Of a stretch of 38,624 bases of DNA, positions 2,294-33,146 are shown piece after piece. Numbering within the stretch: position 1 is the stretch's first letter; every line of letters starts with the position of its first letter. The translations under genes and the position numbers were made by a program. The stretch covers positions 1 to 38,624 of the forward strand of contig ONJB01000019.1 in NCBI GenBank assembly GCA_900318015.1. Reading direction: 5' to 3'. This DNA is from an uncultured Bacteroidales bacterium. Lineage in GTDB: Bacteria; Bacteroidota; Bacteroidia; Bacteroidales; UBA932. Under the pieces are notes generated by a model. The model had not been told where the DNA came from. It made no database searches and saw only the letters and a list, made by a program, of their open reading frames with translations.

Positions 2294-2321
2294 AAAAGAC
2301 TGTATCTAATTGAAACTCAAT

Positions 2322-13915: not shown

Positions 13916-13977
13916 ACAACCAAAACATATTTAACCAACCTTTTTATTCATCAACAACCAACCAAAAGTTCTGCAAC

Positions 13978-16900: not shown

Positions 16901-17604
16901 TCCAGACCATCACTCTCGGGTATGACTTCAAGCGTCTGTGGAAAAACGCTCCGTTCGGTCAGGCCCGTCTGTATGTCCAGGCCCAGAACCCGATTGTCTT
17001 CACCAAGTACAAGGGTCTCGACCCTGAGGTGGGCTCCTCCTCCGGTTTCGACAGCTGGGCGAAGGGCATCGACCTGGGCTTCTATCCGCAGGCCCGCGGC
17101 TTGCTCGTCGGCTTGAATATCTCCTTCGGTGGTGGCAGTCGCAAGAGTGCTGAACCCGCTCCGAGCACGTATGTCCCTGAGCGTATCGTGGAGAAGATCG
17201 TGGAGAAGGTTGTCGAGAAGCGGGTGGAAGTTCCCGTGGAGGTGGTCAAGGAAGTGAAGGTCCCCGGTGGTTCTTCCTTCAGCGGCACCTACGAGGACGA
17301 CCTGTTCTTCCTCATCAACCAGGCTGAGCTCCGTCCCGACGAGGCTTTCAAGCTGGGTCGGATCGCGCAGATCATGAAAGACAATCCGGATGCGAAGATT
17401 ACCGTCACCGGCCACGCCGACAGCGGTACCGGAACTGACGCCATCAACCAGACGCTCTCCGAGCAGCGCGCCCAGGTGGTGGTCGACATGCTCAAGAAGG
17501 CCGGCATCGCCGCCAGTCGCATCATCTCCAAGGCCGTCGGTGGCGACCGGGATGCTTCCATGTCTCCTGAGGCCAACCGCGTAGCCGTTTGCATTCTCAA
17601 ATAA
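13978..17604 (+). CDS. SusC-type TonB-dependent receptor fused to a C-terminal OmpA-like domain
   Basis: A 1208-residue outer-membrane glycan importer. A signal peptide ends at GAMAQ. A carboxypeptidase-regulatory-like domain covers about 22-95, a TonB-box-like EEVVVVGYGVQKKK follows, then the plug with the SusC signature (VNIRGMGTIG, APLYVIDGVAGG, IYGARGANGVILVTTKQGKG) and a long barrel. The barrel closes near residue 1051 (GLLVGLNISF), where SusC proteins normally end. Here a Glu/Val-rich linker follows (about 1060-1095), then an OmpA_C-like domain at about 1099-1208. D1148 in TGHADSG and R1164 in LSEQRAQVV occupy the positions that bind diaminopimelate in OmpA. The receptor may therefore be anchored to peptidoglycan. 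The start at 13978 is fixed by the signal peptide. SusD follows after 17 bases. Confidence 0.93.
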   Translation: MKSKLFASLVLLLMGFGAMAQTVRVTGTVKDAIGPVIGASVIESGTQNGTVTDFEGNFTLSVQQGSSIEISSIGYRTQVLAVTGPNHFDVLLEEDTELLEEVVVVGYGVQKKKLVTGSTVQVKGDDLVKLNSTSALGAMQSSSPGVSIMNSSGQPGSGYNVNIRGMGTIGSYAPLYVIDGVAGGDINSLNPSDIESIDVLKDAASCAIYGARGANGVILVTTKQGKGDKYVVTYDGFYGIQNVQRMPELLNAQQYMDIQDQVSFNMGKDPIDWAGILNPTLYNDIKSGAFKGTNWLDAIRNVNAPNTNHAINVVGGSDRSKFSMGVSYTHQEGIFGKPVASNYKRFTVRLNSDHVLWRENGLDIITLGENMTFNTNQRGGIGTGNHYWNDVYNMLAANPLVPIYQPDGSYTEYDWLSNSGIWALDSYTSNPIAAMTYSSRGNNDSHGYGLTLSGNLRVQPIKGLTWKSQFNYRMSASTYRDYSMVYKLTNYAFLDTDSVSQSASAGWSWSWENTVNYVFNLADKHHFDALVGSTLEHSGFGESVNASNSEVLWPNLWKYAYVGNTAGDPSKDNVGGSTWGDSGLASFFGRINYDYAEKYMLSLILRRDGSSNFMRGHRWGTFPSVSAGWVITNEPWWNVRAIDFLKFRGSWGQNGNCNVSNFQYLSTVSVGAADGGYSFYTGPTSTTSGTGAYADKLANPDITWETSQQLDLGFDARLFRNRFNVAFDWYQKDTKDWLVNAPIMGHFGANAPYINGGDVRNTGVELALNWNDAIGQDFSYNVGVNVAHNKNKVTRIANDEGIFHGPGNVVQGIAEMYRAQVGYPIGYFWTYKSDGVFQNQQEIDDWVAAGKGTIQDQLVPGDLKFVDINKDGVINDADKTMTGDPNPDWNLGVNFSVYFKGFDFAVSGYGMFGQQVFRAYRRYSDSQWNNYTTEVYSYWHGEGTSNHFPRLVAGTNYNFMNNSDIFIEDADFFRIQTITLGYDFKRLWKNAPFGQARLYVQAQNPIVFTKYKGLDPEVGSSSGFDSWAKGIDLGFYPQARGLLVGLNISFGGGSRKSAEPAPSTYVPERIVEKIVEKVVEKRVEVPVEVVKEVKVPGGSSFSGTYEDDLFFLINQAELRPDEAFKLGRIAQIMKDNPDAKITVTGHADSGTGTDAINQTLSEQRAQVVVDMLKKAGIAASRIISKAVGGDRDASMSPEANRVAVCILK

Positions 17605-17621
17605 TCAAGAACGAAAGCGTT

Positions 17622-19406
17622 ATGAAAAATATGAAGAAAATTGCGGCCCTGGCCGTCCTCGCTTTCTCGTTTGCATCCTGCGAGTCCTTCCTGGATACCA
17701 CCAACTACTGGTCCAAGGACAGCAGTAACTTCCCGGTGAACGCTACGGATGCCGAGCAGATGCTCGCCGGCATCTACAACAACCTGAACGTCTCCATCGG
17801 CAACAACGTCCATGTGAACCACTTCCTGTGGTCCGTGGCGGCGTCCGACGACGCGCTCGGCGGCGGTGGCGCGAACGACCAGACCATGCAGGCCGAAGAC
17901 CTCCTGTTGAACTTCGGCACCGATATGTACAACAACTTCTACGTGGACCGTTACAAGGGTATCGCGCGTGCGAACGCGGCCATCGAGGCAATGCCCAACT
18001 GCGGTGTCGCGGAACTCAATCAGTACATGGGTGAAGCTTTCTTCCTCCGTGCCTGGTACTATTACGAACTGGCTTCCATGTTCGGCAATATCCCTTGCCC
18101 GGTGTCCTCCCAGGCCGACCCGACCCAGCCGCAGATCAGCGGCGAGGCGCTCTGGGGCCAGATCATCGAGGACTGCAAGATAGCAGCCGACATCATGCCC
18201 GCACGGCAGTCCGCCGGTGACGGCCATGTGGACAAGTACGCTGCCGAGGCGCTCCTCGGCCGCGCTTACCTGTTCGCGTCCGGTTTCTATGGCCTGAATG
18301 ATATCACGCTTCCTGCTTACGAGAACGAGGCCATCGGCATCAGCATCGCCGAGGGTACCAAGATCACGAAGTCTGAAGTGGGTGCCTACATCACCGACTG
18401 CGTGAACAATTCCGGTTATTCCCTCGTAAGTGACTACCACAACCTCTGGGCGTACACGAACAAGTGCTCTATCGAGGATGAGAAGAATCCTTGGCACGGC
18501 CACGGTTACCAGTGGGTGGAGAATGACGGTGCCCGGAACCCGGAGGCCATGTTCATGATCAAGTTCAACACCCAGCCTTCCTGGGGAACCACCATCGGCT
18601 ATTCCAACCAGACCGCCCTGTTCATGGGTATCCGCGGACAGAGCCTCGACAACGGCGAGTGCATGCCGTTCGGCACCGGCTGGGGCATGTGCCCGGTCAA
18701 TCCTTCCCTGGTCTCCGACTGGAAGGCCCTCGAACCGAACGACGCCCGTCTGGACGCCTCCATCATCGATGTCAAGGACTTCAGCGGCACCTATGTGTTC
18801 GGCGGAGACTCCAACATCCAGGAGAGCGGTTTCTACCAGACCAAGACCATGCCGGTCATCGCCTGGAGCGAGGAGAACGGCAAGTACATGAAGTCCTTCA
18901 CGAACGTGATGTTCCCGGGCCTGACCTGGTCTTCCGGAAACGAGGACAACTTCCAGCTGAACAGCGTCAATGACATGGTGCTGATCCGCTTCGCCGAGGT
19001 CCTGCTGATGGATGCCGAGATCAACGGCAACCAGGCTTCGTTCGACAAGGTCCGCCAGCGCGCCGGCCTTCCTTCCAAGCCGCTCAACGAGGAGAACCTC
19101 CGCAACGAGCGCCGTTGGGAATTCGCTTTCGAGGGCATCCGGTTCAATGACCTCCGCCGCTACGGCGAGAGCTATGCCGTCGCTGCCTTGAACAAGCAGG
19201 AGGGTGTCCCTGTGTACAACAGCGGTGTGCTGGGAACGAACAACGCTTCCAAGTACAACGGTGGTTACGGTGAACGTTACAAGGCCACCAAGGGCTTCGC
19301 TCCGCTCCCGAGCAGTCAGATTTCCCTGTCTGCCGGTGCCGGCGAAGAGTACAAGTTCACCCAGAATGAAGGCTGGGGTTCCCAGTACGATTTTCCGGGT
19401 TGGTAG
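17622..19406 (+). CDS. SusD/RagB-type glycan-binding lipoprotein
   Basis: A 594-residue surface lipoprotein (MKNMKKIAALAVLAFSFASC) that forms the lid of the SusC importer and captures oligosaccharide. SusD landmarks are seen: FLDTTNYW and NATDAEQMLAGIYNNLN near the N-terminus, TPR-like helices including GEAFFLRAWYYYELASMFGNIP, and the C-terminal RNERRWEFAFEGIRFNDLRRYGE. An in-frame upstream ATG at 17589 would overlap the SusC coding end and spoil the signal peptide, so 17622 is preferred. Codons are rich in GGT and CGT like those of SusC, fitting high expression. The ligand is inferred to be mannan or glucomannan oligosaccharide from the neighbours. Confidence 0.92.
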   Translation: MKNMKKIAALAVLAFSFASCESFLDTTNYWSKDSSNFPVNATDAEQMLAGIYNNLNVSIGNNVHVNHFLWSVAASDDALGGGGANDQTMQAEDLLLNFGTDMYNNFYVDRYKGIARANAAIEAMPNCGVAELNQYMGEAFFLRAWYYYELASMFGNIPCPVSSQADPTQPQISGEALWGQIIEDCKIAADIMPARQSAGDGHVDKYAAEALLGRAYLFASGFYGLNDITLPAYENEAIGISIAEGTKITKSEVGAYITDCVNNSGYSLVSDYHNLWAYTNKCSIEDEKNPWHGHGYQWVENDGARNPEAMFMIKFNTQPSWGTTIGYSNQTALFMGIRGQSLDNGECMPFGTGWGMCPVNPSLVSDWKALEPNDARLDASIIDVKDFSGTYVFGGDSNIQESGFYQTKTMPVIAWSEENGKYMKSFTNVMFPGLTWSSGNEDNFQLNSVNDMVLIRFAEVLLMDAEINGNQASFDKVRQRAGLPSKPLNEENLRNERRWEFAFEGIRFNDLRRYGESYAVAALNKQEGVPVYNSGVLGTNNASKYNGGYGERYKATKGFAPLPSSQISLSAGAGEEYKFTQNEGWGSQYDFPGW

Positions 19407-20956: not shown

Positions 20957-22420
20957 ATGGACCGGGTAAACAAAGCGGCGCTGTCCACCCTGTTGGGCGT
21001 GGGGGTCTTTGCCTTCTGGATGGGATTGTATCCACAGGCCTTGAACTACCACGAGCAGAACCAGCTGTTCCTCTTCACCGGGGACTATTTCCGGGAGCGC
21101 ATGGCGCTGCCGGGCGGTTTTGCGGACTGGCTGTCGGAGTTCCTCGTGCAGCTGTTCTATTACCGCTGGTCGGGTGCGCTCGTCCTGGCCGTGCTGGCCG
21201 TCCTGCTGCAACTGGCCGTCTGGCGGTCCGCAGGCTGTGTGGACAAGCGGGGAAGCAGGAGCCTCTATGCCTTGAGCTTCCTTCCCTCACTCCTGATGCT
21301 CGTGCATATGGGCAACATGGAAGTGCTGGTGAGCTACCCCGTCGCTTTGCTCCTGTCCGTTTCCCTATGCCCGGTTTTCGCCCGGGCTGGTTGGCACCGG
21401 CTCTGGCTGATCCCGCTCGGATGGTGGCTGGCCGGTCCGGTGATTATCGTACCGATCCTGTTCTCCGTCCTCCTGGGTCGGAAATGGAAGGATGTCCTGG
21501 TCCTCGTATTCACGGCCCTGGTCTATTACGCCGGTTACCGGCTGCTGGCCGCGCAGTACCCGATGCGGGATGCCTTCTTCGGCGTCAACTATACCCGGAT
21601 CCGCGAGATGCTACCTGCCTTGCAAGTCATCATCCCGCTGATGGCGCTCGGATGCATCTTCGGATGCGGACTTCCCATGAAGAAAACGGTCCCGACCATC
21701 CTGGATTGGGCGCTGTTTGCCGTCCTGGTGCTGGGAACCGCCCTTGGCGTCCGGCAGGCTTATGACCGGGATGCCTATGAGGTGCTCGCTTATGACGACC
21801 TCATCCGCCACGAGCGGTATCAGGAAGTGATCAAACGGGCGGAAAAGTATCAGCCGCCCACCCCTGTCAGTGCGTGTTCTGTCAATTTCAGCCTGTTCAT
21901 GAACGGGCAGCTCTCGGCCCGCCTGCCGGAGTTCTACCAGTGTGGCACGCAAGGGCTCGTGCTGCCTTCCATCCGGGACAACGTGTCGGATCTCACGTCG
22001 GCCGAGCTGCTCTGGATGATGGGCATGCCCAACATTACCCTCCAGTATTATTTCGATTCGATGGAGTCCATTGAAAACGGACGCCTGAGCGGCCGCTTCC
22101 TCTCCCGGATGGCCGACTGCAACCTCGTCAACGGATGGTACGGGCCGGCCGAAAAGTATCTGGACCTGCTCTCGCACAGTCTCTTTTACCGCAAGTCCGC
22201 CCTCCGGAGGAAGGAAATGCTCCGGGACGAGGCGGCGGTGAACGCGGATCCGGTCTATGCTTATGTCCGATCCGTCCGTTTCCGCGACGACTTCATCACG
22301 GGATATGACCGTCTGGACCTGATGATGGCTATCCTGTACAACCAGAACGAGAATAACTTCATGGCTGCCGAGTACTACAATGTCTGGCAGCGTCTCAAGC
22401 AGATGGAGGGCCAGCGATGA
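20957..22420 (+). CDS. DUF6057-type multi-TM protein, module 1 (short C-terminus)
   Basis: A 487-residue inner-membrane protein of a Bacteroidota-specific type I recognise as DUF6057; its function is unknown. The N-terminus reads LYPQALNYHEQNQLFLFTGDYFRERMALPGGFADWLSEFLVQLFYY, matching the minus-strand copy at 30172-31926. About eight hydrophobic helices end near residue 275. A soluble helical domain follows with TPR-like character (RMADCNLVNGWYGPAEKYLDLL). Compared with the other copies it stops early and lacks the terminal TYWxYxYY segment. I chose the ATG at 20957 because upstream codons overlap the terminator. Its end overlaps the next start (ATGA), so it is coupled to a CxxCH propeller lipoprotein. 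Confidence 0.75.
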   Translation: MDRVNKAALSTLLGVGVFAFWMGLYPQALNYHEQNQLFLFTGDYFRERMALPGGFADWLSEFLVQLFYYRWSGALVLAVLAVLLQLAVWRSAGCVDKRGSRSLYALSFLPSLLMLVHMGNMEVLVSYPVALLLSVSLCPVFARAGWHRLWLIPLGWWLAGPVIIVPILFSVLLGRKWKDVLVLVFTALVYYAGYRLLAAQYPMRDAFFGVNYTRIREMLPALQVIIPLMALGCIFGCGLPMKKTVPTILDWALFAVLVLGTALGVRQAYDRDAYEVLAYDDLIRHERYQEVIKRAEKYQPPTPVSACSVNFSLFMNGQLSARLPEFYQCGTQGLVLPSIRDNVSDLTSAELLWMMGMPNITLQYYFDSMESIENGRLSGRFLSRMADCNLVNGWYGPAEKYLDLLSHSLFYRKSALRRKEMLRDEAAVNADPVYAYVRSVRFRDDFITGYDRLDLMMAILYNQNENNFMAAEYYNVWQRLKQMEGQR

Positions 22421-23868
22421 AAAGATGGATCCCGCTGTTGGCGGCCTTGTTGACGGTCGCGGCCTGCAAAGGAAGCACATCCTACGTGGATCTGCTTCCG
22501 GACATCTATCCCGATTACATCGGTGTGACGGTTCCCGCCGGGATCGCGCCGATGGATTTCAACCTCCCGGCGGAGTATGACCGCGTCCTGGTCCAGGTGA
22601 CCGGAAGCAATGGCGGTTCCCTGAAGGTTCAGGGCAAATGGGCGCGATTCCCGCTCCGTGCCTGGCGGAAGCTCACCGGACAGAATGCCGGCGGAACGCT
22701 TCAATTCACGGTCTTGGGACGGAAAGACGGTCAATGGACGCAGTGGCGCGACTTTGTCATGTACGTCAGCGATGCGCCGCTGACCGATTACGGCGTCACG
22801 TACCGCAAGATTGCCCCGGGCTATACCACCTACAGCCGCATCGGCCTTTATCAGCGTGATATCCACAGTTTCCAGGAAGAACCCATCATCGAGAGCACGC
22901 TCACGCCCGGTCAGTGCATGAACTGCCATACCGCCAATGCCACGGACCCTTCCCAGTTCCTCTTCCATCTGCGCGGCAAACACGGCGCGACCCTGGTCCA
23001 GCAGGATGGGCACCGGGAGTGGGTGACGACCAAGACAGACAGCACCCTGGGCAACATGGCCTATTGCTACTGGCATCCCGGAGGACGTTGGGTCGCCGGT
23101 TCCATCAATCCGGTCCGCCAGTGCTTCTGGACGGGTGACCAGCAGCCCATCGAAGTGTTCGACACCGCCTCCGACCTGGTGGTGATGGACCTGCGGGACC
23201 ATTCCCTCATCGTGGACCCGCGCTTGACCACGGAGGACTGGCTGGAGTCATCTCCTGCTTTCACCCCGGATGGGAAAACCCTTTATTTCTGCAAGGCAAA
23301 GGCTTACGATGTCCCCCGGCAAGTGGACAGCATCCGGTATGACCTGATGCGGGTGTCCTTCGATGCCGAAACAGGTGCGTTTGGGGAGATCGAAACCGTT
23401 ATTCCGTCCAGCGGAAACGGCCGCAGCGTCAGTTTCCCCCGTCCTTCCTACGACGGTCGGTGGTTGATGTACAACGAGTCGGATTTCGGCGTCTTCCCGA
23501 TCGACCACAAGGAGGCCGACCTCTGGCTGATGGACCTGGCGACGGGGCAGACGCGGCCCATCGACGAGGTGAACAGCCCCTTGTCGGAGAGTTTCCACAA
23601 CTGGAGTTCCGACAGCCGTTGGTTCCTTTTCTCCAGCCGGCGGGACGATGGGTTATACGTCCAGGTTTACCTCGCTTCCATCGATGAGAACGGGCGCTGC
23701 ACCAAGCCCTTCGTGCTTCCGCAGCGGAATCCCCGGAAGTTCTATCACGATATCATGCAATCCTACAATGCACCCGATTTCACCAACGCGCGGGTGCGCT
23801 TCGACACCCGCGGGGTATACCGCGAAGTGTTCTCCGACCAACGTGTCCAAGCTACTGTCAAGCCATGA
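22417..23868 (+). CDS. CxxCH beta-propeller (PD40-like) lipoprotein, module 1
   Basis: A 483-residue lipoprotein with lipid-acceptor C17. The N-terminal third is a conserved domain of unknown function starting IYPDYIGVTVPAGIAPMDF. Next comes CMNCH at 167-171, a single c-type haem-binding motif, followed by LRGKHGATLVQQDG. The rest carries TolB/PD40-like propeller repeats (SSPAFTPDGKTLYFCKAK, FPRPSYDGRWLMYNE, NWSSDSRWFLFSSRRDDG). Two full-length paralogues lie in this window. A periplasmic or surface redox or ligand-binding role is possible; covalent haem attachment is inferred from the motif alone. It is translationally coupled to the DUF6057-type gene before it and lies four bases from the gene after it if the ATG at 23865 is used as overlap. 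Confidence 0.75.
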   Translation: MKRWIPLLAALLTVAACKGSTSYVDLLPDIYPDYIGVTVPAGIAPMDFNLPAEYDRVLVQVTGSNGGSLKVQGKWARFPLRAWRKLTGQNAGGTLQFTVLGRKDGQWTQWRDFVMYVSDAPLTDYGVTYRKIAPGYTTYSRIGLYQRDIHSFQEEPIIESTLTPGQCMNCHTANATDPSQFLFHLRGKHGATLVQQDGHREWVTTKTDSTLGNMAYCYWHPGGRWVAGSINPVRQCFWTGDQQPIEVFDTASDLVVMDLRDHSLIVDPRLTTEDWLESSPAFTPDGKTLYFCKAKAYDVPRQVDSIRYDLMRVSFDAETGAFGEIETVIPSSGNGRSVSFPRPSYDGRWLMYNESDFGVFPIDHKEADLWLMDLATGQTRPIDEVNSPLSESFHNWSSDSRWFLFSSRRDDGLYVQVYLASIDENGRCTKPFVLPQRNPRKFYHDIMQSYNAPDFTNARVRFDTRGVYREVFSDQRVQATVKP

Positions 23869-24407
23869 AAAAAGCATTGATTCTTCTCTTCGCCCTCTCG
23901 TCCGTCCTGTTCTTCTCCTGCGGACGCAACGACCAGTACCGCATCCACGGGCGGGTGACGGCCAATGACCTGGAAGACATGCAGATCTTCCTCGTTCCCC
24001 TGGGCCATGAGACGGCGGAGTTCGTCGATTCCGTCCACATCCATAATCACGAGTTCTTCTTCAAGGGCAAGGAACACTGGATGTGCGAGATTCGCCTGGG
24101 CAAGTACCACCGCGACAAGGGGCAGAACCTGCTCGTGGTCACGGAACCGGGCGACATCTATGTGACCATCGGCCCGGACAGCTCCGGTGGCGGCACGCCC
24201 CAGAACGACAGCCTGCAGGTGTGGAAGGACCTGACCATCGCCCGGAACAAGGTTTTCGGCCCGCTGTATGACGCCGGGCGGAAAGCGGAAGCCGATTCCG
24301 TGCACAATGCCTACAAGGAGCGCACACGTGAACTCGCCCGCAATGTCGGAGAAGAAAGCATCCTTGGCGCGTTCCTGTTGAATCTTTATCCTGTTCCTGC
24401 GGAGTAA
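23865..24407 (+). CDS. DUF4369-like lipoprotein
   Basis: A 180-residue lipoprotein (signal ending VLFFSC, lipid-acceptor C19), starting in an ATGA overlap with the preceding stop. The body (YRIHGRVTANDLEDMQIFLV, then NHEFFFKGKE and PGDIYVTIGPDSSGGGTPQND) resembles the DUF4369 domain that usually sits in front of a thioredoxin domain in Bacteroidota thiol:disulfide proteins. Here the protein ends after a short helical segment and has no CxxC thioredoxin part. Whether it serves the CxxCH proteins beside it, for example in keeping their cysteines reduced with a separate partner, is speculation. It lies three bases before the next gene, in the same operon. Confidence 0.66.
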   Translation: MKKALILLFALSSVLFFSCGRNDQYRIHGRVTANDLEDMQIFLVPLGHETAEFVDSVHIHNHEFFFKGKEHWMCEIRLGKYHRDKGQNLLVVTEPGDIYVTIGPDSSGGGTPQNDSLQVWKDLTIARNKVFGPLYDAGRKAEADSVHNAYKERTRELARNVGEESILGAFLLNLYPVPAE

Positions 24408-24410
24408 GCC

Positions 24411-25478
24411 ATGACCGGAAAGAAAGGCAGATGGATCCTTGGCATCTCGCTGGCCGCCCTGCTCGCGGTGGCCGGGGGGAGCCAGGTCTTTTTCCTGGCC
24501 CGTTACCCGTACTTCCGGAAGTATGCCGCCCAGAACGGCGTGACCCTTCGGGAGGCTCGGGAGGCCTGGGGGCATCCGGATGCCATTTCGGAGCAGATGA
24601 TGGGCTTGGCGGTCGAAGCTTCGCTTGAGAACTGGGACAAGGTGGCCGAGCTGGCGTCCGAAGACCGAAAAACCCTGGTCGGCACTTACTATTACAACCT
24701 GGCCAACGCCCACCGCGGGCAGCTTGCCGACCGGCTGATGGACTATTACCAGCCTTTCGAGCGGGGGCTTTTCCTCCCGGTCGGGGAGAAGTCCACGCCG
24801 TTCCAGATCGGCTGCGCCGGGGATGTCTGGTTCGCCCTGGGGGATATGTCGATGGCGGAACGGGATGCGATGCTGGGCATGCTGTTCTCCCCGTCACATA
24901 CCGGTTCCCGCTTTCTCCGCCGTCTGGCGGAGACCAATCTGGTCACCGGAGATTACGAGGCTGCGTCCAAGTACCTGCGGATGCTTCTCAATGCGCGCCA
25001 GGACCGGAAGTGGGCCCGGGAGCATCTCCCCGAGGCCTGGTCGCCGCAGTATGCAGCCCGCATCGAGCAGAAGCGCGCGCTGCTGCCCCATTTCGACCTG
25101 GTCCACGGCATGGACCAGACGCAGCTCATCCTGCGGATCCTGCTCAATTCCAATCCGTCCAACCGGATGGCGCTGGACTATCTCCTGTGCTACGACCTCC
25201 TGACCAAGGACCTGGACGCTTTCGTGGGGGATTACGTCCCTTCGCTGACCGCCTCACACCTGTACGAGGAGGCGATGCTCATCTTCCTGGCCGCCAAGGG
25301 CGGCATGGATCCGGAGAACTTCCGGCACTATCACATTTCCGAGGAGACGCTCGCGCGCTTCAACCGTTTCGTCACCATCTACAAGCGGGACGAAGGGTCC
25401 GGCAAGAACCTGACCGAGGAATTCGGAAAAACCTATTGGTACTACTTCTACTATGCTGTGCGGAATGAACACCGGTAA
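24411..25478 (+). CDS. DUF6057-like protein, module 2 (single TM, soluble domain only)
   Basis: A 355-residue protein with one N-terminal membrane helix (about residues 8-29) and then a helical domain. It aligns by eye with the C-terminal half of the minus-strand DUF6057-type protein: FLRRLAETNLVTGDYEAASKYLRML, NPSNRMALDYLLCYDLLTKDLDAFV and the ending FGKTYWYYFYY. It therefore has the tail that module 1 lacks but not the multi-TM half. No function is known. The helical repeats suggest a scaffold facing the periplasm, which is inference. It begins three bases after the DUF4369-like gene and its end overlaps the next start by 14 bases. Confidence 0.68.
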   Translation: MTGKKGRWILGISLAALLAVAGGSQVFFLARYPYFRKYAAQNGVTLREAREAWGHPDAISEQMMGLAVEASLENWDKVAELASEDRKTLVGTYYYNLANAHRGQLADRLMDYYQPFERGLFLPVGEKSTPFQIGCAGDVWFALGDMSMAERDAMLGMLFSPSHTGSRFLRRLAETNLVTGDYEAASKYLRMLLNARQDRKWAREHLPEAWSPQYAARIEQKRALLPHFDLVHGMDQTQLILRILLNSNPSNRMALDYLLCYDLLTKDLDAFVGDYVPSLTASHLYEEAMLIFLAAKGGMDPENFRHYHISEETLARFNRFVTIYKRDEGSGKNLTEEFGKTYWYYFYYAVRNEHR

Positions 25479-26922
25479 CCGGGCCTGGCTGGCCGTCTTC
25501 GCGCTCCTCCTGCTCCTTGCGTGCGGGCGGAGGGCGGACCTGCGCCCTTACGGAGAGGGGACCGACCGGACGGCGCCCATTTTCCCGGACTACCGGGAGG
25601 TTACGGTGCCCGGCAACATCGCTCCGCTGAATTTCTACTATACGGATCCGCAGGGCTCCCGCTTCGTGACGACGTTCACGGCGGCCGGGCAGTCCGTGAC
25701 CATCCGGGGGCGGGATGTGGTCTGGAAAGAGAAGGAATGGGCCCGGATCCTGGCGACCGGAGCCGATATGGAGGTGTCTTCTCAGTACAAGACCCCTTCC
25801 GGTCCGATGTCCTTCACCTGGACCGTCCACGTGAGTCCCGATCCCATCGACGGCTACCTGACCTACCGGCTCATCGAGCCCGGATTCGAGGTCTGGGACG
25901 ACCTGGAGATCGTCGAGCGGAACCTGTCCACCTTCGACGCCCGGCCCATCTCCGACTGGCGCAACACGCAGAACAAGTGCATGAACTGCCACATCCACGC
26001 CCAGGGAAGGGGAGACCTGTCGATGTTCTACCTCCGGGGCGAGGGCGGCGGCGCCATCCTCAACCGGGATGGGAAACTCCGGAAGCTGACGCTCAAGGAT
26101 TCTACGATGATCTCCGCCACGGTCTATGGCGAAATCCATCCGGGAGGCCGCTACGGCGTCTTCTCGACCAATGTCATCATCCCGGGCATGCATTCCTTCG
26201 GAAACCGCCGGATGGAAGTGTTCGACACGGCCTCCGACCTGTGCGTGGCCGATTTTGACGGAAACCGGATGCAGACCTTCCCGGAAACCGCCCGCCCTGA
26301 CGTCTTCGAAACCTTCCCTGTCTTCTCCGCGGACGGGAAGTGGGTGTACTACTGCGCCGCCCCGGTGAAAAACCTGCCGGCCGAGGTGGAGCAGACGATG
26401 TATTCCCTGGTCCGCCGGCCGTTCGACGCGGAAACCGGCACCCTGGGCGCGCCGGCCGATACGGTTTGGAGCGCTTCGGAGCGCGGCCTGTCGGTGTGCC
26501 ACCCCAAGGCCTCGCCCGACGGCCGCTGGCTGCTTTTCACCGTGGCGGATTACGGGACCTTCCCCATCAACCACCGCGAGTGCGACCTACGGATGATGGA
26601 TCTCCAGACGGGCGAGGTCCTGACCCTGGACGAGGTCAATGCCGACAAGTCCGACACGTACCACAGCTGGTCCTCTAATGCGAAGTGGTTCGTCTTCGCC
26701 TCCAAGCGGGGCGACGGGATGTTCGGCAAGCCCTGGTTCAGCCACGTCTCGGAAGACGGAAGCGTCACCAAGCCCTTCCTCCTTCCCCAGCGGGACCCCC
26801 ATTTCTATGATACGATGACCCGGTCCTTCAATGTCCCGGACCTCGGCAACGCTTCGGTCGGCTTCGACGCCGCGGAGATCGGCCGTGTCTGGCGGGAAAT
26901 GCCGGCCGAAGTTTTTGATTGA
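25465..26922 (+). CDS. CxxCH beta-propeller (PD40-like) lipoprotein, module 2
   Basis: A 485-residue lipoprotein from the ATG at 25465 (lipid-acceptor C20 in LLLLLAC); an ATG at 25453 would add four residues. It is a paralogue of the gene at 22417: IFPDYREVTVPGNIAPLNF, then CMNCH at 172-176, LRGEGGGAILNRDG, and propeller motifs AGDGKWVYYC-like, HPKASPDGRWLLFTVADYG and WSSNAKWFVFASKRGDG. The CxxCH motif is kept although the flanking sequence has diverged, which argues that it is functional. The start lies inside the end of the module 2 DUF6057-like gene. The GH5 gene follows after 13 bases, so this lipoprotein is in one transcript with a glycosidase. Confidence 0.75.
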   Translation: MNTGNRAWLAVFALLLLLACGRRADLRPYGEGTDRTAPIFPDYREVTVPGNIAPLNFYYTDPQGSRFVTTFTAAGQSVTIRGRDVVWKEKEWARILATGADMEVSSQYKTPSGPMSFTWTVHVSPDPIDGYLTYRLIEPGFEVWDDLEIVERNLSTFDARPISDWRNTQNKCMNCHIHAQGRGDLSMFYLRGEGGGAILNRDGKLRKLTLKDSTMISATVYGEIHPGGRYGVFSTNVIIPGMHSFGNRRMEVFDTASDLCVADFDGNRMQTFPETARPDVFETFPVFSADGKWVYYCAAPVKNLPAEVEQTMYSLVRRPFDAETGTLGAPADTVWSASERGLSVCHPKASPDGRWLLFTVADYGTFPINHRECDLRMMDLQTGEVLTLDEVNADKSDTYHSWSSNAKWFVFASKRGDGMFGKPWFSHVSEDGSVTKPFLLPQRDPHFYDTMTRSFNVPDLGNASVGFDAAEIGRVWREMPAEVFD

Positions 26923-26935
26923 CAACCTGACCCTT

Positions 26936-28705
26936 ATGAGACTTTGGAAAATCCTTCTATCGGCCCTGCCCGTTCTCCTCGTCGCCTGCGGCGGCAAGAC
27001 CCCGGAACCCGATCCCGTCCGACTCGCTGCCAGTCCGGCCGAACTGGAGTTCGGGCCGGAGGGCGGCACGCAGACCCTGACCATCACCAGCGGCATCCAG
27101 CCCGCGGTCTCCAGCCTGGGCGACTGGGTGACCATCACCCCGGGGACGCCTTCCGGGAACAATTATCCCTTCAGTGTCAAGGCCTCGGCCTACAACGGAA
27201 CCCTGGACCATTCGACCAGCATCCGCGTCATCGGGGACAAGCAGAGCCTGATGATCACGGTCCTGCAGCGTCATCCCGAGGTGGAACTGGCCGTCAGCAA
27301 GAGCACGCTTTCCTTCGACCGTTCCGGCGGCGAGGAAACCTTCACGGTGACCTCCTCGACCCAGCCCCAGGTCACGTCCGACGCGTCCTGGCTCGTCATC
27401 GAGACCGGCAGGATCGACAAGGACCACCATTCCATCGTCAAGGTGCAGGCCGGGGCCAGCCGGAAGACGGAGGCGGACGCCGGTACCCTCACCGTTTCCT
27501 GCGGAGGCAAGTCCGTGTCGGTCGGTGTCACCCAGGAGGCGTTCGTCGCTCCTGCTGTCGCCGCCACCACGCCTGTCACATCGCAGATGGTGTTCGATGC
27601 GATGGGACCGGGCTGGAATATGGGCAATCATATGGACGCCATCAACAACGGCGTGTCCGGCGAGACGGTCTGGGGCAATCCCAAATGCACCCAGGCCACG
27701 ATGGACGGCGTCAAGGCGGCCGGGTTCAAGGCCGTCCGCATCTGCACGACCTGGGAAGGACATATCGGTCCCGCCCCGGCGTATCGGATCGAAGACAAGT
27801 GGTTGGACCGCGTCGCGGAAATCGTCGGCTATGCCGAACGGGCCGGCCTCGTGGCCATCGTGAACACGCACCACGACGAAACGTACTGGCAGGACATCAG
27901 CAAGTGCATCAACAATGCCGCAAACCACGAAAAGGTGAAGGACGAGGTGTTCGCCCTCTGGACCCAGATTGCAGAACGTTTCAAGGATAAGGGCGAATGG
28001 CTCGTGTTCGAGTCTTTCAACGAGATCCAGGACGGCGGCTGGGGCTGGAGCGAGGCCTTCCGGAAGAACCCGGGCGCCCAGTACAAGATCCTGAACGAGT
28101 GGAACCAGACCTTCGTGGACGCCGTCCGTGCGACCGGCGGGGAGAATGCGACCCGCTGGCTGGGCATTCCGGGCTACGCCTGCAATCCGGGCTTCACGAT
28201 CGCCGGCCTGGTCCTGCCCACGGATTACACCAGCGCCAACCGCCTGATGGTGGCCGTCCACGACTACGACCCGTACGACTATACACTCAAGGATCCGCTC
28301 ATCCGCCAGTGGGGACATACGGCCGCAGCGGACAAGCGCCTGAGCGGCGACAATGAAAAGGCGGTCGTCGATGTCTTCGACAATCTCAAAGCCGCCTACC
28401 TGGACCAGGGCATCCCGGTCTATCTGGGCGAAATGGGTTGTTCCCGCCATGCGGCGGAGGATCTTCCGTACCAGCGCTACTATATGGAGTACTTCTGCAA
28501 GGCCGCGGCGGACCATCTCCTGCCGATGTACCTCTGGGACAACGGTGCCAAGGGAACCGGGTCGGAACGCCACGCCTACATCGACCACGGTACCGGCCAG
28601 TTCGTAGATGACGAAGCGCGGACGCTGGTGGGCCTGATGGTCAAGGCCGTGACCACGAAGGATCCGGCCTACACGCTGCAGAGCGTCTATGATGCGGCTC
28701 CGTAA
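26936..28705 (+). CDS. Double-BACON GH5 (subfamily 4-like) endoglycanase lipoprotein
   Basis: A 589-residue lipoprotein with lipid-acceptor C18 (LLVAC). Two BACON-like beta-sandwiches occupy about 27-112 and 116-201. The GH5 barrel follows: GPGWNMGNHMDA, ETVWGNPKCTQATMDGVKAAGF (subfamily 4 pattern), VNTHHDE at about 309-315, acid/base E363 in FESFNEIQDGG and nucleophile E499 in VYLGEMGCSR. It resembles the BACON-GH5 at 8782 in architecture but carries one extra BACON. Likely an extracellular endo-beta-glycanase on a glucan or glucomannan backbone; the substrate is not fixed by sequence. The stop codon directly abuts the stop of the converging minus-strand gene. I set the start at 26936 by the signal peptide. 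Confidence 0.86.
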   Translation: MRLWKILLSALPVLLVACGGKTPEPDPVRLAASPAELEFGPEGGTQTLTITSGIQPAVSSLGDWVTITPGTPSGNNYPFSVKASAYNGTLDHSTSIRVIGDKQSLMITVLQRHPEVELAVSKSTLSFDRSGGEETFTVTSSTQPQVTSDASWLVIETGRIDKDHHSIVKVQAGASRKTEADAGTLTVSCGGKSVSVGVTQEAFVAPAVAATTPVTSQMVFDAMGPGWNMGNHMDAINNGVSGETVWGNPKCTQATMDGVKAAGFKAVRICTTWEGHIGPAPAYRIEDKWLDRVAEIVGYAERAGLVAIVNTHHDETYWQDISKCINNAANHEKVKDEVFALWTQIAERFKDKGEWLVFESFNEIQDGGWGWSEAFRKNPGAQYKILNEWNQTFVDAVRATGGENATRWLGIPGYACNPGFTIAGLVLPTDYTSANRLMVAVHDYDPYDYTLKDPLIRQWGHTAAADKRLSGDNEKAVVDVFDNLKAAYLDQGIPVYLGEMGCSRHAAEDLPYQRYYMEYFCKAAADHLLPMYLWDNGAKGTGSERHAYIDHGTGQFVDDEARTLVGLMVKAVTTKDPAYTLQSVYDAAP

Positions 28706-30175
28706 TTAATCGGACCAGCGGAAACCGAACGGTACGCGCTCAGGGGCATCGATCAGCTTCTGGGCGCGTATCCGGTCCAGGGGGACGGGACCCGTCACGA
28801 ATTCGGGGACGTTGTAAGAGCGGTACAGCTTCCGGTAGTACCCGACCGGATCGCGCTGCGGAAGCATGAAGGGCTTGCCGGCTACGCCGTTCTCGTCGAA
28901 ATGAGAGATGTAGGGCCGGGTGTACGATCCGTCGTCCCGTCGGCTGGAGAATACGAACCAGCGGGAATTGGAACTCCAGTTGTGGTAGCTGTCCGTGTCG
29001 GGACTGTTCACCTCGTCCATCGGCCGGATCTCCCCGGTCCCGAGGTCCAGCAGCCACAGGTCGGATTCGTGGTGCCAGATGGAGAAGGTACCGTAATCGC
29101 ACAGGGTGAACATGAGGTACTTGCCGTCGTAGGAAGGTTTCGGGAAGGTGAGACTTTTGCCCATGGAAACGGCATCTACGACCGTCTCGACATCCTGCCC
29201 GATGGTGCCCGTCTCCGGGTCGAAGCTGACTTTCAGGAGGTTGTACTGCGACTGCGGGAGTTCGCCCGGAATCTGGACCTCCCTGGCGGCGGTGAAATAG
29301 AGCGTCCTGCCGTCGGGCGAAAAGGCCGGGAAGCTCTCCCAGATGCCCTTTTGCTTGATCTGGGGCGCCGTGATAATCTGGTTGTTCACCACGTCGTACA
29401 CCTGCAGGTCCGAATCCAGGTCGAACACTTCGATGATCTTGTCCGGCTGGACATGGAAGCCCTGGCGGGTGTTGTTGGTGGAGTAGGCGATGTATTTGCC
29501 GGTCGGATGCCAGTAGGGATAGACACAGAATCCGAGCGTGGAGTCGGTCTTCGTGTTGTAGGCGGCCATTTCACCGTTCACCTGCAGCAACGTGGCGCCG
29601 TGGTCGCCGCGGATGTGGAGGCTGAAGGCATCAGGATTGCCACGGTTGTAGGCGTGGCAGTTCACGCAGCCGTCGAACTGGGTGTTCTCCAGCAGGCCCC
29701 GTTCCTTGAAGGATCCAAGCTCCCGTTCGTAAATGCCCATGTGGCTGTAAATCTCATAGCCGGGGGCGATCAGGCGGTAGTTGAGGCCGTAGTCGATCGG
29801 GTCCGGCGAGACGAACATCCCGAAAGGGTCGAACGATTTCCAAGCGCCGTCGATGCGGCCGGCCACCTCCACGCGGAGGGAGTCGCCGACGCTCCGTTCC
29901 AGCAGCGTCTTCCATTTCCGGACGGGCAGCTTGGTGAAGGATTTCCCCCGGTTCTGGAGAACCGTCCCGTCAGGAGCGGTGATACGGACTTCCAGCCGGT
30001 CTGCGCCCGGGAGGGCGAAGTCCAGGGGGGCGATGCCGGTGGGGATGGTCACTCCCGTGTAGTCGGGATAAATGGACGGCCGGCAGCCTGCAGGGGCGGC
30101 GTGGCGCATCCCTGAGGTGCAAGCGGCCAGGGCCAGGGTGAGGGCCGCGAGGACCAGACGGATCAATCGTTTCAT
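28706..30175 (-). CDS. CxxCH beta-propeller (PD40-like) lipoprotein, module 3
   Basis: A 489-residue lipoprotein (lipid-acceptor C19 in ALAAC) and the third paralogue of this set. It has IYPDYTGVTIPTGIAPLDF, then CVNCH at 170-174 followed by IRGDHGATLLQVNGE, and propeller motifs FPAFSPDGRTLYFTAA, FPKPSYDGKYLMFTLCDYG and NWSSNSRWFVFSSRRDDG. It resembles module 1 more than module 2 in these segments. The start overlaps the stop of the DUF6057-type gene upstream (ATGA), repeating the coupling seen in module 1. The two genes share the promoter at 31950-31980. The role is unknown; a haem-binding or ligand-sensing surface protein is a reasonable guess. Confidence 0.76.
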   Translation of the reverse strand: MKRLIRLVLAALTLALAACTSGMRHAAPAGCRPSIYPDYTGVTIPTGIAPLDFALPGADRLEVRITAPDGTVLQNRGKSFTKLPVRKWKTLLERSVGDSLRVEVAGRIDGAWKSFDPFGMFVSPDPIDYGLNYRLIAPGYEIYSHMGIYERELGSFKERGLLENTQFDGCVNCHAYNRGNPDAFSLHIRGDHGATLLQVNGEMAAYNTKTDSTLGFCVYPYWHPTGKYIAYSTNNTRQGFHVQPDKIIEVFDLDSDLQVYDVVNNQIITAPQIKQKGIWESFPAFSPDGRTLYFTAAREVQIPGELPQSQYNLLKVSFDPETGTIGQDVETVVDAVSMGKSLTFPKPSYDGKYLMFTLCDYGTFSIWHHESDLWLLDLGTGEIRPMDEVNSPDTDSYHNWSSNSRWFVFSSRRDDGSYTRPYISHFDENGVAGKPFMLPQRDPVGYYRKLYRSYNVPEFVTGPVPLDRIRAQKLIDAPERVPFGFRWSD

Positions 30176-31926
30176 TGGGGCTGGGTCCGGTATCTGTAAT
30201 AGTAATAGAACCAATAGGTGTCGCCGTACTTGCGGTGCATGGTCTCCTCCGACGCTTCCGTCCGGGCGTCGCCGATGAACTGGCTGATGCGCTGGACGTT
30301 GGCCGGTGAGAGGTAGGAGGGGATGCCCTCGAAGTCGTTGTGCGTGAGCACCCAGCGGAGGAGGAGGGCCTCCTGGTAGGTTTTGGGCATCTGGGGCGCC
30401 TTCAGCAGCTGGATGACCTCGACGAAACGGTCCAGGTCTTTCTTCAGGAGGCACCAGGACAGGAGATACCGGAGGGCCATTTCGTTATCCGGGTTCTCCA
30501 CGTACAGGAGTCCCAGCATCGAGTCCATTTCCGTGTCGCTGAACAGGAAGTCGTGCTCCTTGAGGCGCAGGTCCTTCGCGCGGGCGAGTTCGGGCCGGTT
30601 CTCGAAGATCTTGCCCGCATCCAGCAGGGCCCTTGTCTCGCGGGCCCATCGACGGTAGAAAAGGGTATTCTCCAAAGTGGAGAGATATTTCCTGGCCACG
30701 TCCAGGTCGCCGTTGATGATGTTGGTCTCGGCGAGCCGCCGGTAGCAGCGGGCGCTCTTCTGGAAGTCCGGAATGGCTTCCTGCGCCTCGAAGGCGAACC
30801 GCTGGGCGGTGTTCACCATCCCGAGTTGCCAGTAAATCTCACCCGTGCTCACCGGACCGGTGAAAGTGCGGATGAACTCCGGAAGCAGTCCGTCGGGACC
30901 GTTCTGGAAATAGTCGAACTGGTGGTCTTCCATCCGGCCGGTCTTCGCGAGGGCCAGGTTCAGGCAGGAGACGGTGGTGGGATTGTCGGGATTCTTCCGG
31001 TCGGCCTGCATCATGATGCGGTTCCACATGTTCATCCGGACCATGAAGTCGTAGCGCATCCATTCTTCCTTGCTCCAGTCGGCGGACCGGACGACCAGCA
31101 CGGTTCCGAGGGCGGCAACCCCGAGGAACAGGCCCATTCCCGTGAGCAGCTGTCTCTTGGCGGGGCGCTCTTTCATCGGCAGGTAGGAAAAGGCGGTTAC
31201 CAGCACGGCGCAGATGGCCGATATCCACAGCATGCCGGGCAGGAAATTGTGGAGGCGGTAATAATGGACACCGGTCGCAAGCCGGGAGAGGGGATAGGCG
31301 ACCAAGTGGTTCGCGACCAGCGGGCAGAGGACTGTCAACGCCACGAAAACGACGGCGGCGGGCCAGGCCCGGAGCCCTTCCCGGACGAATGCGTCGATGA
31401 GGACGATCAAGACGAATACGAGGGCGATCGGGCCGCAAGCCAGGTACAGGACGGGAATCAAGAGGGCTTCCACGATGCTGCGGGGCAGATTCCGGGCGAT
31501 GCGGAGGCAGAGGGCGGCGGCGCCCAGTGACAGGGCGAGGGCGACGGCCCCGCCCATCAGGGCGCTTTCGTCGCAGTAGAACGCAGCGAGGGCGGCGACG
31601 GGGACAAAGGACAGGGCGTAGACTGTCAATGTCCGGCGGCGGCAAACAGCCCAGGTAAGCACCTGAACACCGCACAGGAGCACGGCCAGGATGGCCGCTC
31701 CGGCAGGCGCATAGTAGCAGAACTGCGTGAAAAACCTTCCAAGCCAGTCGGCGAATCCGCCGGGAACGGCGGCTACGGATCGGAAGTAGTCCCAGGTGCC
31801 TTCGAAAAGCTGGTACTGCTCCTGGAAATGCAGGTGGTAGGGATATTTCAGGGCGAAGAAACCGTACAGGACGATGCCGGTAAGCAACGTCAGAGCGGCG
31901 CCTGTCAACCTGTGGGATCGGGTCAT
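30172..31926 (-). CDS. DUF6057-type multi-TM protein, module 3 (full length)
   Basis: A 584-residue inner-membrane protein and the most complete DUF6057-type copy here. KYPYHLHFQEQYQLFEGTWDY and VPGGFADWLGRFFTQFCYY match module 1. About nine hydrophobic helices precede a soluble helical domain with CYRRLAETNIINGDLDVARKYL and LENTLFYRRWARE, ending YGDTYWFYYYYRY. I chose the ATG at 31926 because a well-spaced promoter lies just upstream and would fall inside any longer form (an ATG at 31962 overlaps the -7 box). No function is known for this family. It is coupled to the CxxCH lipoprotein downstream. Confidence 0.77.
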   Translation of the reverse strand: MTRSHRLTGAALTLLTGIVLYGFFALKYPYHLHFQEQYQLFEGTWDYFRSVAAVPGGFADWLGRFFTQFCYYAPAGAAILAVLLCGVQVLTWAVCRRRTLTVYALSFVPVAALAAFYCDESALMGGAVALALSLGAAALCLRIARNLPRSIVEALLIPVLYLACGPIALVFVLIVLIDAFVREGLRAWPAAVVFVALTVLCPLVANHLVAYPLSRLATGVHYYRLHNFLPGMLWISAICAVLVTAFSYLPMKERPAKRQLLTGMGLFLGVAALGTVLVVRSADWSKEEWMRYDFMVRMNMWNRIMMQADRKNPDNPTTVSCLNLALAKTGRMEDHQFDYFQNGPDGLLPEFIRTFTGPVSTGEIYWQLGMVNTAQRFAFEAQEAIPDFQKSARCYRRLAETNIINGDLDVARKYLSTLENTLFYRRWARETRALLDAGKIFENRPELARAKDLRLKEHDFLFSDTEMDSMLGLLYVENPDNEMALRYLLSWCLLKKDLDRFVEVIQLLKAPQMPKTYQEALLLRWVLTHNDFEGIPSYLSPANVQRISQFIGDARTEASEETMHRKYGDTYWFYYYYRYRTQPQ

Positions 31927-31949
31927 CGGAAAACGTGAGTTGTAACTTA

Positions 31950-31980
31950 CAAATATATCCATTCTGCCCGATAAATCAAA
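31950..31980 (-). promoter_or_regulatory. Promoter of module 3
   Basis: On the minus strand, TTTG (31980 to 31977), a 19-base spacer and TATATTTG (31957 to 31950) match the Bacteroidota consensus exactly. The start site would fall near 31944, about 18 bases before the ATG. Confidence 0.68.
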
Positions 31981-32009
31981 GGAGCGGGGCAGGAAGAGAG
32001 GTGTCAAAT

Positions 32010-32041
32010 TTTGGCAAGCCCGGGAAAAATGCGTATCTTCG
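32010..32041 (+). promoter_or_regulatory. Promoter of the RidA-like gene
   Basis: TTTG (32010-32013), a 20-base spacer and TATCTTCG (32034-32041), one mismatch from TAnnTTTG. It ends seven bases before the ATG at 32049, so the 5' leader would be very short. It faces away from the module 3 promoter. Confidence 0.58.
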
Positions 32042-32048
32042 TGCCCGC

Positions 32049-33146
32049 ATGAATACCCAAACTGGAATCTTTGTTTTTTCTCCCGGAAGAGATGCGGTCT
32101 GCGAGTATCACCTGATGATCACGGTGACGGATCCGTCGTTGTCCTATTCCCGGCAGCTGGAGGAGGTGTTGGATGCCTACATCCTAGCGACGGAAGGCCT
32201 TACCGTGCATTTCCGGCGCTTCTTCCTCAGTGATGGAGCGAACCAGATTTCCCGGTTGGAAAGCGCCTTGGCGCCGCTGCCGTCTGTCCCGACCTCCATC
32301 GTCCAGCAGGCGCCGCTCGACGGCACCCGGATCGCCCTTTGGGTCTATTGCACCTCTCCGATGGATGTTCTTGCCGGCATGCCTGTCCACAACGGGTATA
32401 CCCACTGCTGGTCCGGATCGATGGTCTGCCCTGGCGCGGACTCCCGTGCGCAAATGGAGGGAATCTTCGAGAACTATGGCGATGACCTGCGAAAGACCGG
32501 ACTCTCCATGGCTTCGGATACGGTCCGCACCTGGATCTTCGTCCGCGACGTGGACACGAACTACCACGGGGTCGTCGTCGGCCGCCGGAATTACTTCGAC
32601 CGCATCGGCCTCACCTCTTCCACGCATTATATCGCCAGCACAGGCATCGAGGGACGCCATCCGGATGCGAAGTATCTGGTCGAGATGGACGCCTACAGCG
32701 TAAAGGGCCTCCAGCCGGGCCAGATCCGGTTCCTGTACGCGAAGGACCATCTCAGCCCCACCTATGACTACGGGGTCACCTTCGAGCGCGGCGCGACCGT
32801 GACGTATGGCGACCGCCGTCATGTTTTCATCAGCGGGACGGCCAGCATCGACGCCGCCGGCCAGGTGATGCACCAGGGCGATGTCGCCGCCCAGGCAGGC
32901 CGCATGTTGGAGAATATCTCGGCCCTGCTTGCCGAGGCCGACGCCGGTCTTCCGGACTTGGCCATGGGCATCGTGTATCTTCGGGATGCGGCGGATTACC
33001 CTATCGTCCGGCCAATCGTTTCGGCCGCCTGTCCGCACCTTCGCCCCCTGTATGTCCTGGCTCCCGTCTGCCGCCCGACCTGGCTGGTGGAAATGGAATG
33101 CCTCGCCATCACGGGCACTTCCGATCCCGCCTTCCGCGCTCTCTGA
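32049..33146 (+). CDS. Two-lobed RidA/chorismatase-like protein
   Basis: A 365-residue cytoplasmic protein without a signal peptide. The C-terminal third is a clear RidA/YjgF-type domain (HVFISGTASIDAAGQVMHQG, then MLENISALLAEADAGLPDL and a closing LVEMECLAI). The preceding part (RTWIFVRDVDTNYHGVVVGR, THYIASTGIEGR) looks like a degenerate second RidA lobe, giving the two-lobe layout known from FkbO/Hyg5-type chorismatases. Standard RidA proteins are about 130 residues. No catalytic assignment is safe: it may be a chorismatase relative, an imine deaminase or a Bacteroidota-specific paralogue. The ATG at 32049 fits the promoter directly upstream. Its link to the glycan locus is not evident. Confidence 0.66.
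   Translation: MNTQTGIFVFSPGRDAVCEYHLMITVTDPSLSYSRQLEEVLDAYILATEGLTVHFRRFFLSDGANQISRLESALAPLPSVPTSIVQQAPLDGTRIALWVYCTSPMDVLAGMPVHNGYTHCWSGSMVCPGADSRAQMEGIFENYGDDLRKTGLSMASDTVRTWIFVRDVDTNYHGVVVGRRNYFDRIGLTSSTHYIASTGIEGRHPDAKYLVEMDAYSVKGLQPGQIRFLYAKDHLSPTYDYGVTFERGATVTYGDRRHVFISGTASIDAAGQVMHQGDVAAQAGRMLENISALLAEADAGLPDLAMGIVYLRDAADYPIVRPIVSAACPHLRPLYVLAPVCRPTWLVEMECLAITGTSDPAFRAL

Follow-up and report, generated by a model that had tools for sequence, protein, structure and literature searches.

The tetratricopeptide repeat (TPR) proteins CcmI and NrfG are chaperones of apocytochromes, which in other systems they present to the heme lyase. A case in which a TPR-like protein is encoded next to a putative c-type cytochrome is described here from a contig of an uncultured Bacteroidales bacterium (ONJB01000019.1), the whole 38,624 nucleotides of which are called the window. 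Three gene pairs are found in it, each made up of a DUF6057 protein (PF19529; D), whose family is named for its unknown function, and a PD40 lipoprotein with one CxNCH motif (B). A first-pass annotation of this DNA had already pointed out the three pairs, and their coordinates, reading frames, and DUF6057 and PD40 scores were confirmed. Literature searches returned nothing under DUF6057 or under PD40+CXXCH+Bacteroides, and searches on broader topics returned nothing on the pair among the titles and abstract starts listed.

The explanation proposed here, to which a probability of about one half is given, is that each pair is a two-component periplasmic mono-heme cytochrome module in which D holds or matures its own B, and that this module is tied to a chorismatase-dependent redox process and has been captured by polysaccharide loci. 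In related bacteria, D and B are present or absent together and occur in genomes that also encode an enzyme of the hydroxybenzoate-making chorismatase family, which points to a periplasmic redox module, so far undescribed, that has repeatedly joined sugar-uptake loci.

Pairing and conserved features of D and B

The pair was followed in an order sample of 148 genomes and in a phylum sample, both of which include the window's genome. In the order sample, DUF6057 scores above the Pfam cut-off (29.8 bits) in 15 of the 148 genomes, and the B profile matches with E below 1e-80 in the same 15, the match in G134 being cut by a contig end. Weaker, partial B matches are present in G065 and G147. Adjacent D and B also occur in two genomes from outside the class. 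Altogether, 38 D and 38 B are encoded by the 17 D-bearing genomes, with equal numbers in each genome. This tally was made manually from the hit lists; split hits were merged, and a D fragment of 229 residues (G095:C79:105709) and partial PD40 hits (E 2e-23 to 2e-31; G057, G065, G134 twice, and G147) were excluded. The partial hits of G057 and G147 are B-like proteins with a CxxCH motif, and counting them would give G057 two B to its one D.

The first-pass annotation had named rare adjacency of the two families elsewhere as the observation that would speak against a partnership. Instead, 33 of the 38 D adjoin their own B (30 as D>B and three as B>D, the latter twice in G102 and once in G110), and the trees of the two families match. 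The other arrangements comprise G134, where D and B are split by contig ends; G101, where a second D sits after the B of the first pair and its own B is about 1.6 kb away on the opposite strand; and G026, G049, and G098, where an unpaired D and an unpaired B lie on different contigs. Over 41 pairs (those of the 17 genomes and of loci L016-L022), the distances in the D and B trees correlate with a coefficient of 0.789, a value reached by none of 3000 shuffles that exchange partners within genomes (maximum 0.733); when partners are exchanged freely, the maximum is 0.25. The TPR core of D alone gives 0.767 (shuffle maximum 0.696), and the membrane part alone gives 0.751 (shuffle maximum 0.743).

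The gene junctions say less than had been expected of them. Start and stop codons overlap in every pair of the window, as annotated: D1/B1 and D3/B3 share four bases (ATGA), and D2/B2 share 14. The fixed ratio of products that had been read from these overlaps does not hold up, as only 14 of 31 D>B pairs overlap, while 11 are separated by up to 20 bases and six lie farther apart (the 31 are those in which a B start was assigned by our own rule, L016-L022 included), and the B>D pairs have the reverse order. In addition, four-base overlaps are found elsewhere in the window, namely between B1 and the following DUF4369 gene and between the genes at 2310-4280 and 4277-6133.

All six D and B reading frames of the window are intact. 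Each B has a single CxNCH, in agreement with the one CxxCH-type motif and PD40 propeller annotated for it (37.8-46.6 bits; cut-off 20.9). Among 60 full-length B, the lipobox Cys is present in all and CxNCH is kept in 59; close relatives of the window (L011-L015) contribute several near copies to this set, from which B that were cut or too short were excluded (one of the three of L013 and those of L048 and L055). In modelling, B takes the form of a TolB-like six-bladed propeller with CxNCH in the first-blade region, and a candidate distal ligand, His398, is shared by 57 of the 59 motif-bearing B. In the B that lacks the motif (L053:9071-10459, from G098), which lies apart from any D, other residues stand in place of the two Cys and the His of CxNCH, and His398 is lost as well. 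This protein deviates at 14 conserved positions in total, so that the motif may have been lost as one part of a general drift. As expected of a c-type cytochrome, B has a conserved CxxCH and an export signal, and the genome encodes a heme c maturation system; CcsA is present in the window's genome and in the other 14 D/B genomes of the order sample. Judging from these features, B probably carries one heme c.

The three D of the window are all members of DUF6057 by score. They had been annotated as membrane helical-repeat proteins, a description that fits insofar as the soluble part is TPR-like (a fold search with the D model returned TPR matches) and fails for D2, in which hydropathy reveals one hydrophobic segment and no polytopic domain. 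D1, in turn, stops at position 477 of the 569 of the profile. Both shortened types are also present in close relatives of this locus, the D1 type in L011, L012, L014, and L015 and the D2 type in those and in L013, and they are thus not the result of recent damage. A fourth D/B pair of the same genome is found on another contig (G000:C65), immediately downstream of SusCD, and adjoins an alpha-glucuronidase-like gene identified by eye. Since D1 lacks the C-terminal end and D2 the polytopic part, the TPR-like core (approximately positions 270-477 of DUF6057) is the sole region common to all four copies and, thus, the likeliest interface with B. Profile searches of the PDB sequences with the D and B families yielded no relative with confidence. 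A cytochrome b in the membrane part of D was also considered and rejected, as no His is found among the invariant or near-invariant positions in an alignment of 15 D, of which three are partial.

A chorismatase-family companion gene

The chorismatase-family gene beside the third pair, which the first-pass annotation had missed, is the new element of this analysis. It appeared as one neighbour of the window pair and as three of 140 scanned neighbours, and it was pursued because of this recurrence. The family profile (A5), built from seven copies near D genes, matches PDB entry 5ag3 (E 1e-37) and FkbO (E 4e-27). Cys341 and Glu348 of the window's protein align with Cys327 and Glu334 of 5ag3, and this Cys, which corresponds to that of CH-II chorismatases, and the Glu seven residues after it are invariant in 7/7 aligned copies. 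Glu334 is named as the essential catalytic residue of Hyg5 in PMC7170507; from this residue number, 5ag3, which is labelled as a putative pteridine-dependent dioxygenase, would be Hyg5. Against the NCBIfam model of the FkbO/Hyg5 subfamily, the window's protein scores 43.5 bits, which is below the cut-off of 325.

A full-length copy of this gene is found in all 15 D/B genomes of the order sample and in six of the other 133 (Fisher 4e-16), with the line for full length (E<1e-50) chosen after the list was viewed and falling in a gap between 1.3e-58 and 5.0e-39. In the phylum sample, the corresponding numbers are 3/3 and 2/244, plus one fragment. These counts exclude weak Rid matches as well as partial chorismatase matches, which were seen in G018 and G053. 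The 15 genomes span 15 families, and in the six for which the family code of a second genome is shown, the other genomes have neither the pair nor the companion gene. The two genomes from outside the class hold the pair along with the chorismatase-family gene too.

Physical proximity is less constant. In seven of the 17 genomes (G000, G025, G026, G098, G134, G186, and G225), the gene is no more than three genes away from D or B, and in G101 it is at the far end of a SusCD-D-B run, while in nine of the 15 co-occurring genomes it does not adjoin the pair (G014, G019, G049, G057, G071, G095, G102, G110, and G114). Neighbours were analysed for 26 copies, that of G101 not among them. Around the copies away from D, exported CxxCH proteins account for 10 of 127 genes within three places, versus 5 of 514 others; in these counts, export signals were called by a rule of our own and neighbouring genes do not count as independent.

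Chorismatase-family genes adjoin CxxCH proteins in several kinds of Bacteroidales clusters (the window, L100, L101, L103, L104, L109, L113, and L118), and CcsA adjoins or lies within about 10 kb in L100, L101, L104, and L109. In L101, a di-heme peroxidase/PSCyt1 set recognised by Pfam stands beside CcsBA; L100 is alike by gene sizes, with CcsA adjoining. In L104:10498-18296, the gene is flanked by a 1331-residue protein with HZS_alpha (E 2.4e-37) and FGE domains and by a propeller plus di-heme protein, a set that resembles homologues of hydrazine synthase alpha and beta-gamma. L109 is similar in gene sizes and CxxCH counts, the Pfam assignments being those of L104. Lastly, B-like PD40 proteins that have one CxxCH and no DUF6057 partner adjoin a chorismatase-family gene in G057, G147, and G307 (L107:2167-3915, L108:1315-3042, and L120:2608-4716).

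Explanations for the pair

In the proposed module, B would be the redox-active part, a lipoprotein with a TolB-like propeller and one covalent heme c at CxNCH. D would be anchored in the inner membrane with its TPR-like domain facing the periplasm, where this domain would recognise the cognate B and either hold it at the membrane or present apo-B to the CcsBA heme lyase. The aromatic product of the chorismatase-family enzyme would probably feed the same redox system, which would explain why the enzyme co-occurs with the module. In SusCD-rich genomes, copies of the module would have been captured by polysaccharide loci. Of all this, the gene content, the pairing with equal copy number and co-inheritance, the conserved motif, the modelled folds, and the link to the chorismatase-family gene come directly from the sequence analysis, and the heme, the complex, its localisation, and any reaction are inferred. 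The inner membrane and periplasm had also been suggested in the first-pass annotation, a placement with which the lipobox of B and the hydropathy of D1, D2, and D4 agree and the number of segments in D3 does not.

Several observations weigh against this proposal. The hydrophobic segments of D3, as we count them, are even in number, contrary to a periplasmic tail. His398 is missing from two of the 59 motif-bearing B, and the separated B of G098, devoid of the heme motif, does not track the separated D. The co-occurrence of CcsA was rejected as proof of heme because CcsA is too common: it is present in 121 of the 148 genomes and does not set the D/B genomes apart from the others (Fisher 0.07). 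B-like CxxCH propeller proteins stand beside a chorismatase-family gene with no D in G057, G147, and G307, and for 10 of the 26 chorismatase-family copies no gene up to three places away encodes D, B, or an exported CxxCH protein. Moreover, no SusC/SusD lies within 5 kb of 14 of the 30 pairs, the co-inheritance of neighbouring genes can be explained by linkage, and where D and B are separated the lead of the nearest pair of D over the next is narrow in G049 (2.84 to 2.97) and G101 (1.42 to 1.50).

The alternative that survives best, though doubtful, is that D is purely a maturation factor, that is, a dedicated TPR chaperone that delivers apo-B to CcsBA and stays outside the working enzyme. The cognate tracking of D and B would be expected of such a chaperone, as would the TPR-like core being all that the four copies of this genome share, the presence of CcsA wherever the order sample has the pair, and the fact that the sole B without CxNCH is also separated and tracks no D. 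Nevertheless, this heme-less case rests on one genome, the polytopic domain of full-length D is left with no obvious role, and CxxCH propeller proteins beside a chorismatase-family gene do exist without D.

It is unlikely that D and B are just a convenient operon whose genes travel together with no physical partnership. Linkage co-inherits adjacent genes and could by itself yield the match between the trees, and overlaps such as those of 14 of the 31 scored pairs are a common feature of operons; separated genes, therefore, matter as a test. In three of the four genomes with a separated D and B (G026, G049, and G101, but not G098), the two retain the same nearest sister pair: a G019 pair (L044) with a clear margin in G026, a G025 pair (L024) in G049, and the third pair of the window in G101. 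In G134, the two pairs closest to B rank second and third in distance from D. Copy numbers are also equal in 17/17 genomes, even where the genes are apart.

A role as a component of polysaccharide loci, for instance as a sensor or as a binding or uptake accessory to SusCD, is quite improbable as a general explanation. SusC/SusD are found within 5 kb of 16 of 30 pairs, versus 2.3 expected from the density of SusD (by locus, 15 of 27 versus 2.0), and two of the 14 pairs beyond that distance are the second and third pairs of the window, which belong to the same locus at 6.8 and 11 kb from SusC/SusD. However, G014 and G019 have two SusD and four pairs each, with no SusC/SusD in the stretches around the pairs, and in such SusD-poor genomes this role fails as a general one; the two genomes from outside the class, which carry the pair with a chorismatase-family gene, also speak against it. 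Thus, the module is portable rather than a polysaccharide-locus component as such.

Finally, it is very improbable, and not supported, that a diverged GT-C-type glycosyltransferase makes up the membrane part of D, with a TPR tail attached and B as its accessory: the topology is similar (a first transmembrane helix, a loop with two short helices, further transmembrane helices, and a TPR tail) and hhalign places positions 3-97 of the D profile on 11-115 of TMEM260, where a GT-C domain would start, but the probability is 1.3-7.7% versus 96.9% for the TMEM260/PMT_2 control, no Pfam GT-C family matches eight D N-terminal parts at E<=10 (with HMMER filters that drop most weak hits), Glu36 of the loop is Glu in 32 of 46 aligned rows, and D2 lacks the membrane domain.

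The analysis supplies DUF6057 with a partner and with a role that can be tested, and it places a probable mono-heme lipoprotein cytochrome in polysaccharide loci of several Bacteroidales families. The chorismatase link may also offer a biochemical handle (chorismate to hydroxybenzoate) on the electron feed to periplasmic cytochromes in anaerobic Bacteroidota. A broader idea, which is improbable and speculative in taking the aromatic as an electron carrier, is that, in Bacteroidota, a set of propeller and di-heme cytochromes of the periplasm relies for its electron carrier or cofactor on a hydroxybenzoate-type aromatic made by a cytosolic chorismatase-family enzyme; the D/B pair would be the most duplicated branch of this set seen here, and DUF6057 the membrane-side docking protein for its own cytochrome. 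Such a system would amount to a respiratory or detoxifying route not previously described.

The locus and known systems

The pairs of the window are surrounded by a mannan-type locus with GH5, GH26, GH130, a sugar transporter, SusC, and SusD (Table 1). The SusC-like receptor frame just ahead of SusD (13447-17604) is unusual in having a C-terminal OmpA domain (56 bits, frame residues 1287-1371). The overlapping genes within 2310-6133 are a tandem of two DUF3857/transglutaminase-like genes.

Table 1. Pairs and associated genes of the window; profile positions refer to PF19529
Feature	Coordinates	Strand	Description
SusC (start uncertain)	13978..17604	+	Plug domain; mannan-type polysaccharide locus
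SusD	17589..19406	+	SusD_RagB, SusD-like_3; mannan-type polysaccharide locus
D1, DUF6057	20957..22420	+	487 aa; N-terminal membrane domain and TPR-like domain (hydropathy), short C terminus; PF19529 345 bits, profile 8-477
B1, lipoprotein with PD40 propeller	22417..23868	+	483 aa; single CMNCH (22915-22929); PD40 37.9 bits
DUF4369 protein, between pairs 1 and 2	23865..24407	+	PF14289 30.6 bits
D2, DUF6057 without polytopic domain	24411..25478	+	355 aa; one N-terminal hydrophobic segment and TPR-like domain; PF19529 310 bits, profile 266-569
B2, lipoprotein with PD40 propeller	25465..26922	+	485 aa; CMNCH (25978-25992); PD40 37.8 bits
BACON-GH5 enzyme, between pairs 2 and 3	26936..28705	+	Cellulase 173.9 bits
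B3, lipoprotein with PD40 propeller	28706..30175	-	489 aa; CVNCH (29654-29668); PD40 46.6 bits; AlphaFold2 model pLDDT 88.8
D3, full-length DUF6057	30172..31926	-	584 aa; PF19529 592 bits, profile 8-568; AlphaFold2 model pLDDT 87.9
Chorismatase-family protein (Rid-fold C terminus), divergent from D3	32049..33146	+	PF01042 54.8 bits on longer frame 31935-33146; A5 profile; PDB match

B resembles TolB in its periplasmic-type six-bladed propeller, but it scores 20-23 bits against the NCBIfam TolB equivalog, whose cut-off is 343, and the lipobox and CxNCH are features of B. It was also considered as a hydrazine synthase alpha subunit, which carries two hemes according to an excerpt of PMC12758564, and rejected: the three B of the window give no HZS_alpha (PF18582) match at E<=1, and each has one CxxCH-type motif, in the first-blade region. 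The chorismatase-family protein resembles the Hyg5/FkbO/XanB2 chorismatases by its profile matches to 5ag3 and FkbO and by the Cys and Glu seven residues apart; it differs from them in scoring under the NCBIfam cut-off and in adjoining propeller cytochromes. Within DUF6057 itself, D1 and D2 are partial forms of the family to which D3 belongs. As in CcmI and NrfG, D has a membrane-linked TPR-like domain, probably periplasmic, that is tied to a c-type cytochrome. In contrast to these chaperones, to which D has no demonstrated sequence relation, D in its full-length form includes a large membrane domain, and it follows a single B instead of serving a range of cytochromes.

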